Shown: positions 26,323-30,816 of the stretch, one piece after another | Numbering within the stretch: position 1 is the stretch's first letter | How the letters are laid out: each line of letters starts with the position of its first letter | NCBI GenBank assembly: GCA_020717925.1 | Contig: DYDL01000008.1 | Span: 1-33,218, forward strand | Source: Desulfocapsa sp. | GTDB taxonomy: Bacteria > Desulfobacterota > Desulfobulbia > Desulfobulbales > CG2-30-60-27 | Length of the DNA stretch: 33,218 nt | Reading direction: 5' to 3' | Program-made: the position numbers and the translations under genes | Notes under the pieces: model-generated | What the model was told of the DNA's origin: nothing | Seen by the model: the letters and a program-made list of their open reading frames with translations, nothing else | Databases searched by the model: none

Positions 26323-26619
26323 TCACACCTCGATCAATATTACCTCTTGGCTTTCCAACATCCGTTCGGCGACCGCCGCAATCTGTGGAAGGGTGAAGAA
26401 GCTGTACTTCTTCTCACCGAACCAACGCCCATTCACCCGAACCCGGTACATCCTCGACCAATCCACGGCTTCACAGTCTCGCGGCGACGGAAAAACAGGC
26501 ATTCCTTGCTTTAATCGCCAGTATTTCGCCTCGAAAAGCTCGAAAATCAGTAATTTATTGCCCAACATTCCGGCATTTGAAAACCTCCATCGAGCAAATA
26601 CGGGACGTTCATCACTCAT
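26323..26619 (-). CDS. Hypothetical protein
   Basis: 98 aa ORF, start overlaps the HNH stop (ATGA). Confidence 0.6.
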   Translation of the reverse strand: MSDERPVFARWRFSNAGMLGNKLLIFELFEAKYWRLKQGMPVFPSPRDCEAVDWSRMYRVRVNGRWFGEKKYSFFTLPQIAAVAERMLESQEVILIEV

Positions 26620-27176
26620 TGCAAGCCTCTTAGATTAAACTCCGGCCACATGGATTTTATGGATTTCACCAATTCTGATCGATGGTTACACGTCCATTCC
26701 GGACATTGAATCTCAAATGTCAGCCGAGCCAAAGCGGCTTCCAGAGCACTGGTATAAAAACCTAAAGAAATATTCTTACCGTTAACTCCTACCTGGCCGC
26801 GCCATTTCCCCTCTTTCTTACCCCAAGTTACACCGGGGAATCCAGATGTATTACGGCTACTTTTTATCTGATTCTGCATGTTGCACTTAGTTGAGACGTG
26901 ACGAAGATTTAAAAATCTATTGTCTTGTCTATCACCATTTAAGTGATCGATATCGTATTCGGGAAAATAACCATTAATAAAAAACCAAGCCAAACGATGT
27001 GCTTGATAGATTTTCCTATCAATTATAATATTTACGTACCCTGTTCTATGGACTGTTCCCGCCTCAGACCCTGACGTGATTTGGTTGTTACGACCCGTAT
27101 TCCAAAAGAATTTACCAGTACTTGGGTTGTATGTTAAAAGCTCTTTCAGCCTTGTATGGGTTATTGTTGCCTTCAT
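26616..27176 (-). CDS. HNH homing endonuclease with AP2 DNA-binding domain
   Basis: GYVNIIIDRKIYQAHRLAWFFINGYFPEYDIDHLNGDRQDNRFLNLRHVSTKCNMQNQ plus SGFPGVTWGKKEGKWRGQVGVNGKNISLGFYTSALEAALAR. Confidence 0.93.
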   Translation of the reverse strand: MKATITHTRLKELLTYNPSTGKFFWNTGRNNQITSGSEAGTVHRTGYVNIIIDRKIYQAHRLAWFFINGYFPEYDIDHLNGDRQDNRFLNLRHVSTKCNMQNQIKSSRNTSGFPGVTWGKKEGKWRGQVGVNGKNISLGFYTSALEAALARLTFEIQCPEWTCNHRSELVKSIKSMWPEFNLRGLQ

Positions 27177-27882: not shown

Positions 27883-30816
27883 TTATCCAAACACCTGTAA
27901 ACCATCTGTTTCATACCTCGACACCGGATTACGCGGCTCGGGGTTAAGCGACATAAGGAACGCCGCATTGAGCATAGCGAGGACCGGATCGACCTTACCA
28001 AGCCCACTCGCCTCTTTGGTGATGTACCGGTTCGAGCCCTTGATTTCCTGCCGGGCATTACCGACACACCAGACCATGAGCTGCTGGCCACCGTGGATGA
28101 GTCGGCCCCCGGCCAACTTCCTTTCAATATCGATAATTGCGCTGTTTAACTGCCATCCCTGCTTGATACCGACGACCCGCTTCTCATCATACCCGAGCAA
28201 GGTGAGGGCCTGGGCCGGGGCCGAGGTACCGGAAGGGTCCAGGCCCACCCGATCAAGCAGTCCCGATGCCTCGCATTTCTCAACAATAGCGCAAAACTCC
28301 CGAATATCCTGTTCCATCTCATTGACAATTACCAGATCCCCGGCGTCCCGCAACTTCTGATAGACTGTGATATTCTCCTTCCTTCGGTCAAGGGCGATTG
28401 GATGGACCCAAGCTCGGAAATAGGCCCGCCACAACTCCTGGTCATCCCTATCCCGGCCAAGGACGCACATACCGAGCAAGTCATCCAAACCACCACCGTC
28501 GCCACCGATCACCACAACGTCAGAACGTTCAAGGATCGTGTCGAGGGTGCAGTCGGATTGTGCGTTGTAGAGGTAGCCTGTTACTTCACCATCGACCATA
28601 ATTGGTGCTTTCTCCCAACAGTCAGCCCCAGCCCACCGCTCGGCATGCATGACCATGCCAATCTCAACGTTCAGGTGCTTGGCGAGAAATCCACAGAGAC
28701 TATCCTTCCCATCGGCTTCCGCTTGTTTGAATTTGCGCTCAATGAACGGAATATCAACCGACAGGCCAAGGTTGGGGTTGGTGATGTAAAAGTTCTCAGG
28801 CTTCATGTACGCCTTGTCCTCGACCATCTGTGGTGGGAATTCATAGAGGATCGGCATGAAGGCAGGGTCATGGATCTTCCCATCCCGAACAGCGCGGGCA
28901 TAGGTGAGTTTTTTTGCAAACGCCCCCGCCGGGGCTCGGTCGGACTGGGTGGTGAGGTAAATTACAGCGCCTTCGGGGCGTGAAGCAAGCCCCCCTGTGG
29001 CCTCAATCAGCATGTTCTCGGCATTAGGGTTCTCACCGAACAGCCAAAACTCGTCTAATAAAGTGATGGTACCAATCTTTCCCGCGACCGTGTTCTTATC
29101 GGCAGCCACGACTTTCAAGATCGTGCCGTTGTCGCGGTGGGTGATGGTCTTTAAATGTGGCTGGTAATGAAACATTGCATGAAGGTCTGGATCAAGCTTC
29201 ACCATCCACATGGCGGGAGTATAGGAGTTCGATGCGACCTCAATGGTAGGGGCAATAATATTGTACTCGGCGCCAGACCGCCAGTTGATAATCGTGGCGG
29301 TCAACATCACTCCACTTGCTAGGAAACTATTATGGGTCGGAATCATGGTTCTTCCGAAGAGAAACTGGTGATCCGATGAGTCTACGGCGGTACAACGAAC
29401 CGGAACGGTTTTAACCTTGTAGCATTCGGTTATCTGGATAGATTCGCTTCGGGCTTTCTTGGATGAGTTATTGTACCTCATCCGGTCAAGTTTTCTCGCC
29501 AACCCGAAAACCGGCAATTTATCACGAAATGCCATAAACTGGACATCGTAAGACAAGCCATCCACCGGTTTCCCGTTACACCGCATTTCTTTCGCTATAA
29601 TGGAATGTTTTATACCAAATGTGGAAAGTAACTCGCCAAATTGAATAGCCAATTTCGGAAGAATAGTGGTGTACTTTATAACCCTACCTGATTTTGATAT
29701 GGTTCCATCCGTATCCATCATTCCTTGTAGTAAGGAAAGACGTTGTGCAAAACTCGCTCGAAGATAATTAGAAGGTATGTGTTTATTACCCAAAAGATCT
29801 TCTTTTCTAAGGGTTTCTTGTAATGAAAAACAAACAATTGGGGACTTAGGAGTTCCATTTCTCTTGAAACGGTCGTTTTCTCTATTACATTCTAAGCAAA
29901 GAGGGTATGAATTCCCTTTTTTCGAGTCATATACCAATCGCGTTCGTGAAGGATCATACCCCCGATGACAAAGAAGCCGATCTGTGACCCCTATCGCTTG
30001 CGCCCACGCTTTCGACTTTGAGGGAATCCTCTTCCCCAACAAAAAACCATCCTGAACTATCCGGTCCATTATGTATTCATTAGCACAGGTGATTCGCGCC
30101 GTCAAAGTATTACCATCACCCAACCATGCACCGAGGGTATACGGGGGAATTGGTAGATCTATTTCAGGAAGAATCAAAGGATCAGGGGTATATAAAGAGT
30201 GATTTCTTGCGCCATCCCCTGGACGGAAGAGGGTTTCTGCAATTTCTTTGGTTGTGCGGATTTTCTTTCTCGGTACTAATTTATACCCTTTCTTTCTTTT
30301 TCCTGAACCAGGACAAGCGGCCAGAGCATCCGTCATCCATAAATGCCCCGCATCAGCGACAACGTTCTCACCGTTGCTGAATTCCATTCTATAGCAGTCA
30401 TGGCCTTGAAATATTTCACTCATGCTGGTAACTCGACAAGGATTTCCATCTATGCCAAACACTTCATCCCCGACAGCCAGTTCCCCCATGGTCGTCCAGC
30501 CCTTCGGCGTGGGAATAGGTGTATCAAGAGCAAGGGCTTTCGTATTTTTCTTTGCCACGCTCAGGAAGAACTCAACAATCAGGCGTCTACCGGCATCAGC
30601 ATCATAGGCGCCAAAGATCGCCCGGACAATATCAAATACCCATTCCCGGCAAGCCTGGCCCATGGTCGGCTGCCCGGGTAGATTGTAGATTCGCAGTTGC
30701 TTGAAGATAGCAAGAGCGTGTTCGGCCTCGCTTGGGAACAGCGGCGGGCAGGGTACGAGGGACTCACCGGCAACAATGCGTCTTTCCCAATGAGGGCATG
30801 CGGTTGACCAGATCAT
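27883..30816 (-). CDS. terL: Terminase large subunit precursor, interrupted in frame by an intein
   Basis: Exteins: HK97-type TerL (FFLSVAKKNTK/SFLASGVML Walker A; GTITLLDEFWLFG Walker B region; VVVIGGDGGGLDD nuclease region). Confidence 0.95.
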   Translation of the reverse strand: MIWSTACPHWERRIVAGESLVPCPPLFPSEAEHALAIFKQLRIYNLPGQPTMGQACREWVFDIVRAIFGAYDADAGRRLIVEFFLSVAKKNTKALALDTPIPTPKGWTTMGELAVGDEVFGIDGNPCRVTSMSEIFQGHDCYRMEFSNGENVVADAGHLWMTDALAACPGSGKRKKGYKLVPRKKIRTTKEIAETLFRPGDGARNHSLYTPDPLILPEIDLPIPPYTLGAWLGDGNTLTARITCANEYIMDRIVQDGFLLGKRIPSKSKAWAQAIGVTDRLLCHRGYDPSRTRLVYDSKKGNSYPLCLECNRENDRFKRNGTPKSPIVCFSLQETLRKEDLLGNKHIPSNYLRASFAQRLSLLQGMMDTDGTISKSGRVIKYTTILPKLAIQFGELLSTFGIKHSIIAKEMRCNGKPVDGLSYDVQFMAFRDKLPVFGLARKLDRMRYNNSSKKARSESIQITECYKVKTVPVRCTAVDSSDHQFLFGRTMIPTHNSFLASGVMLTATIINWRSGAEYNIIAPTIEVASNSYTPAMWMVKLDPDLHAMFHYQPHLKTITHRDNGTILKVVAADKNTVAGKIGTITLLDEFWLFGENPNAENMLIEATGGLASRPEGAVIYLTTQSDRAPAGAFAKKLTYARAVRDGKIHDPAFMPILYEFPPQMVEDKAYMKPENFYITNPNLGLSVDIPFIERKFKQAEADGKDSLCGFLAKHLNVEIGMVMHAERWAGADCWEKAPIMVDGEVTGYLYNAQSDCTLDTILERSDVVVIGGDGGGLDDLLGMCVLGRDRDDQELWRAYFRAWVHPIALDRRKENITVYQKLRDAGDLVIVNEMEQDIREFCAIVEKCEASGLLDRVGLDPSGTSAPAQALTLLGYDEKRVVGIKQGWQLNSAIIDIERKLAGGRLIHGGQQLMVWCVGNARQEIKGSNRYITKEASGLGKVDPVLAMLNAAFLMSLNPEPRNPVSRYETDGLQVFG
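29329..30537 (-). mobile_element. Intein (403 aa) with LAGLIDADG-type homing endonuclease blocks; candidate class 3
   Basis: ALALDTPIPTPKGWTTMGELAVGDEVFG ... TLGAWLGDG ... LLQGMMDTDGTIS ... VPVRCTAVDSSDHQFLFGRTMIPTHN/S. Inserted between K and S of the Walker A motif. Confidence 0.94.

Follow-up and report, generated by a model that had tools for sequence, protein, structure and literature searches.

Class 3 inteins lack an N-terminal nucleophile and are defined by a Trp at block B position 12, a Cys at block F position 4 and a Thr at block G position 5, the WCT set (PMC3196547, PMC5050341). Among those solved are the mini-inteins MchDnaB1 and MsmDnaB1 of Mycobacterium chimaera and M. smegmatis (PDB 6rix/6riy and 6bs8). 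In MchDnaB1, Cys124, His65 and Thr143 form a protease-like triad, and Trp67 is the remaining WCT residue (PMC7664689). Class 3 inteins in phage terL, and a P-loop site between Lys and Thr termed TerL1-a, have already been published; five mycobacteriophage terminase inteins splice, and both of those assayed for cutting cleave the DNA of the partner phage (PMC5050341). Here, we describe a well-formed further example of these terL inteins, at the known site between Lys and Ser or Thr, in a 33,218-nucleotide contig from a Desulfocapsa assembly (the window, meaning the whole stretch of DNA analysed). We are highly confident that the element is class 3 and full-length, that it includes a LAGLIDADG homing endonuclease and that it interrupts Walker A in the large terminase of a phage.

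The terL open reading frame translates as 977 codons with no internal stop, and its product matches the phrog_9 terminase large subunit profile (E=2.3e-93) and Pfam TerL_nuclease (E=1e-6). Judged by its sequence, it is a phage large terminase carrying an in-frame intein. The intein occupies precursor residues 94-496, running from ALALDTPIPTPKGW to MIPTHN, and its removal leaves an extein of 574 residues. The Walker A motif and the ATPase and nuclease domains are all present in the extein, as seen from the two profiles and from intein-free terminases that are 49-52% identical to it. The first-pass annotation had placed the intein at 29329-30537 and predicted a spliced TerL of 574 residues; its coordinates and residue numbers are all correct, and the length agrees with the extein translation. 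Searching the same genome for a second copy of the intein returned none.

The same annotation had put the insertion between the Lys and Ser of Walker A (KKNTK/S, the slash marking the junction), and intein-free terminases bear this out. Five of them, aligned over nearly the whole extein, read KKN[ATS]K/S without interruption across the junction, so the intein lies exactly between the two residues. Mycobacteriophage TerL inteins at TerL1-a occupy the same position, after the invariant Walker A Lys and before the next Ser or Thr (PMC5050341). One of these, in phage Sassay, is a WCT intein at RKNGK/T that is 30% identical to ours. The terminase of Vibrio phage 489E54-1 (OX241561) contains another full-length WCT intein, at RKYGK/T, with 36.6% identity.

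Features of the intein-bearing terL gene, with positions in the window.
Feature	Position	Strand	Evidence
terL ORF, 977-aa precursor (574-aa terminase large subunit plus 403-aa intein)	27883..30816	-	translation, phrog_9, TerL_nuclease
N-extein, residues 1-93, ending ...VAKKNTK (Walker A Lys)	30538..30816	-	alignment to intein-free terminases
Intein, assigned to class 3, 403 aa	29329..30537	-	homology, PDB match, AlphaFold model, Foldseek
Ala1, without N-terminal nucleophile	30535..30537	-	translation
His65, block B position 10	30343..30345	-	invariant in 23-row alignment; equals MchDnaB1 His65
Trp67, block B position 12, W of WCT	30337..30339	-	equals MchDnaB1 Trp67; kept in 35/35 relatives
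LAGLIDADG homing endonuclease region, approx. intein residues 76-362	29452..30312	-	Pfam, PI-SceI profile match, Foldseek, GC3
First LAGLIDADG motif LGAWLGDG, residues 135-142, Asp141	30112..30135	-	Asp141 invariant in 23-row alignment
Zinc-knuckle-like insert C190-HRG-...-C214-LE-C217, residues 190-217, inside endonuclease	29887..29970	-	similar insert in relatives L014 and L027
Second LAGLIDADG motif LLQGMMDTDG, residues 269-278, Asp277	29704..29733	-	Asp277 invariant in 23-row alignment
Cys382, block F position 4, C of WCT, proposed branch-point nucleophile	29392..29394	-	equals MchDnaB1 Cys124; invariant
Thr401-His402-Asn403, block G; T of WCT, penultimate His, terminal Asn	29329..29337	-	Thr401 equals MchDnaB1 Thr143; invariant
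Ser+1, C-extein nucleophile and Walker A Ser	29326..29328	-	alignment to intein-free terminases
C-extein, remainder of ATPase domain plus nuclease domain	27883..29328	-	phrog_9, TerL_nuclease, phage relatives

The splicing residues follow the class 3 pattern throughout. Position 1 holds Ala, where class 3 inteins have no Cys, Ser or Thr; Trp67, Cys382 and Thr401 stand at B12, F4 and G5; and His65, His402 and Asn403 supply the block B His, the penultimate His and the terminal Asn. The first-pass annotation had listed Ala1, Trp67 in ADAGHLWMT, Cys382 in VPVRCTAVD, Thr401 in IPTHN and Ser+1, all present as described. By phmmer, the PDB entries closest to the intein are two class 3 DnaB inteins, 6rix from M. 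chimaera (E=6.8e-31) and 6bs8 from M. smegmatis (E=6.6e-30). Beyond these class 3 entries, at E about 1e-30, the next intein is a WCT-grafted gp41-1 variant at E=0.0097. Residues 1-71 align to the two mini-inteins without gaps at 56-57% identity (40/71 and 40/70), and all three share His65, Trp67, the block F Cys and the terminal THN. Against the crystallised MchDnaB1, His65 corresponds to His65, Trp67 to Trp67, Cys382 to Cys124 and Thr401 to Thr143. As a sequence signal, the intein is far beyond chance, as the 6rix match and the tblastn relatives in 430 phage records show. The DnaB inteins differ from ours in host gene and size: they are mini-inteins of 139-146 residues in bacterial DnaB, whereas ours sits in phage terL and carries a LAGLIDADG endonuclease.

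That W, C and T mark class 3 had been proposed from the first reading, which had staked the assignment on these residues falling at class 3 positions. The alignment with the solved intein places them there exactly, and 35 of 35 relatives keep them. The other comparison it had suggested, with Pfam intein profiles, gave no match: Intein_splicing (PF14890), searched against the whole genome, found no intein. We do not count this null against the intein because, aligned directly, it matches class 3 inteins of known structure strongly. The Pfam splicing-domain model can miss class 3 inteins, so such inteins are probably under-counted.

An Ala at position 1 followed by a nucleophile at +1 is also common to class 2 inteins, which likewise start without a nucleophile (PMC3196547). 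In a class 2-like intein, Ser+1 would attack the N-terminal bond directly and the block F Cys would be incidental. We find this scarcely credible: W, C and T each stand exactly where class 3 inteins have them, and the nearest relatives of known structure belong to class 3; class 2, moreover, was known from KlbA alone at the time of PMC3196547.

One residue is unusual and counts against the class 3 reading. Thr383 (29389-29391) directly follows the proposed nucleophile Cys382, at a position occupied by Ile, Val or Leu in each of the 35 relatives. The matching residue of MchDnaB1 is Val125, whose backbone lines the proposed oxyanion hole (PMC7664689). Thr383 could point to a decayed, non-splicing intein in a dead prophage, and one class 3 intein, Arsp-FB24 Arth_1007, is documented as a pseudogene whose exteins are short (PMC3196547). 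Decay is nevertheless highly unlikely here: every catalytic residue is kept, including the B10 His and F4 Cys missing from Arth_1007, the 977-residue frame is open, and neither extein is truncated, each matching terminases that are intact.

Relatives of the intein were found by tblastn in 430 phage records, mostly mycobacteriophages; among those listed at the top, most annotations are terminase or exonuclease. We extracted 35 full-length relatives from records of phages, viral contigs and bacterial genomes, and in every one of them the aligned columns hold W, C and T. Their first residue is most often Ala, and many lie at a GK/(S or T) junction. In a 23-row alignment, H65, W67, D141, D277, C382, T401, H402 and N403 are invariant; the relatives were picked by similarity to the query, so this invariance measures conservation within the family, and the PDB match serves as the independent test. 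A tree built from the splicing columns groups our intein weakly with the terminase inteins of Vibrio phage 489E54-1 and Synechococcus phage B23 (85/95 and 84/62), among 35 WCT inteins and no class 1 rows.

Several relatives have features of their own. In one chromosome of Planctomycetes bacterium syqfu (CP087563), about 83 kb separate two WCT inteins that are almost identical (L038 and L040); both lie at an RGSGK/T site in proteins of about 1,100 residues. The terL intein of Acidovorax phage ACF1 (L048, 460-1512) apparently has a Cys at position 1 plus the full WCT set, and Asn replaces its first LAGLIDADG Asp, the sole such case among the 35. Genomes of the same order as the window's source gave no comparable terL intein, only weak matches that include helicase-like inteins. 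Two of these genomes, G141 (L004, 967-2010) and G091 (L006), have Ala-starting inteins at a helicase-like SMGK/ site, and the G141 intein has W, C and T at class 3 positions.

By analogy with MchDnaB1, we infer that Cys382, activated by His65 together with Thr401 and with Trp67 alongside, would attack the Lys-Ala1 peptide bond to give the block F branched thioester of class 3. Ser+1 would then receive the N-extein, Asn403 would cyclise and the exteins would be ligated into a 574-residue terminase with an intact KKNTKS P-loop. Because the intein sits in Walker A, the motor should lack proper ATP binding before splicing, and packaging should wait on it. DNA packaging would thus plausibly report on class 3 splicing. 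For the endonuclease, the presumed target is the conserved P-loop of intein-free terL alleles, and cutting there would let the element spread.

The endonuclease itself is recognisable by several means. A Pfam LAGLIDADG_3 match covers intein residues 265-316 (E=4.6e-8), and the region has a profile match to PI-SceI. The blocks LGAWLGDG and LLQGMMDTDG, which the first-pass annotation had picked out, are the two LAGLIDADG motifs, and each retains its catalytic Asp. In an AlphaFold2 model of the intein (pLDDT 82.7, pTM 0.82), most of the splicing domain scores above 90. PI-SceI, the yeast VMA intein, is a class 1 intein and starts with Cys. It has the same intein plus LAGLIDADG architecture (PDB 1ef0, 1vde) and is the best fold match by Foldseek against the PDB (E=9e-17); the class 3 inteins MchDnaB-1 and MsmDnaB follow at E about 1e-8. 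In a search of predicted viral proteins, whole-length matches to many intein-bearing terminases emerged. GC3 rises from 0.375 in the endonuclease part through 0.48-0.51 in the splicing parts to 0.59 and 0.64 in the exteins, which fits later arrival of a mobile insert.

Our intein is 26-84 residues longer than the other 35, largely through an insert of the form C190-x2-G-x20-C214-x2-C217; the Vibrio phage 489E54-1 intein (L042), at 345 residues, is without it. Only two of the 35 relatives, L014 and L027, carry a similar insert there, of the form C-x2-G-H...C-x2-C, and the knuckle position that is His in both is Tyr in ours. At low confidence, AlphaFold2 models the insert as a hairpin (199-214) followed by a helix (215-227), a treble-clef-like arrangement. 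Zinc binding by residues 190-217 is a guess, because the model is of low confidence and the knuckle His is replaced by Tyr. Searched alone in phages, the insert gave chance-level matches only. We tentatively suggest that some class 3 inteins of phages form a small group with a treble-clef-like zinc knuckle inside the LAGLIDADG endonuclease, an idea we consider doubtful; if true, the knuckle would extend or alter DNA recognition. Yeast HO and WHO were described in 2020 as the only fusions of an intein with a zinc finger (PMC7282813).

The insert also bears on whether the endonuclease works. Residues from about 172 to 236 are poorly modelled, which makes its integrity less certain, and the Tyr in place of the His of the two similar relatives adds to this. 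The intein could be competent in class 3 splicing while its endonuclease is inactive or has been retargeted by the insert. This would be compatible with our main reading and is a possibility, though not the one we lean towards: Asp141, Asp277 and the motifs around them are intact and invariant in the 23-row alignment.

The nearest phage relatives of the extein are terminases of enterobacterial and Pseudomonas phages, and megablast of 8000-32900 against phage and plasmid collections found no DNA-level relative. Class 3 terL inteins thus extend to a phage without such a relative in the collections searched. The whole contig (1-33218, C182 of the assembly) resembles a tailed phage, with genes for DNA polymerase, a DUF2800 exonuclease, major tail protein, tail completion protein, major head, head protease, portal, terL and endonuclease VII/HNH. 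Directly downstream of terL, on the minus strand, lies an HNH endonuclease gene with an AP2-like C-terminus (26616-27176). Its GC3 is 0.385, against about 0.53-0.58 in the neighbouring structural genes, as would fit a free-standing homing endonuclease.
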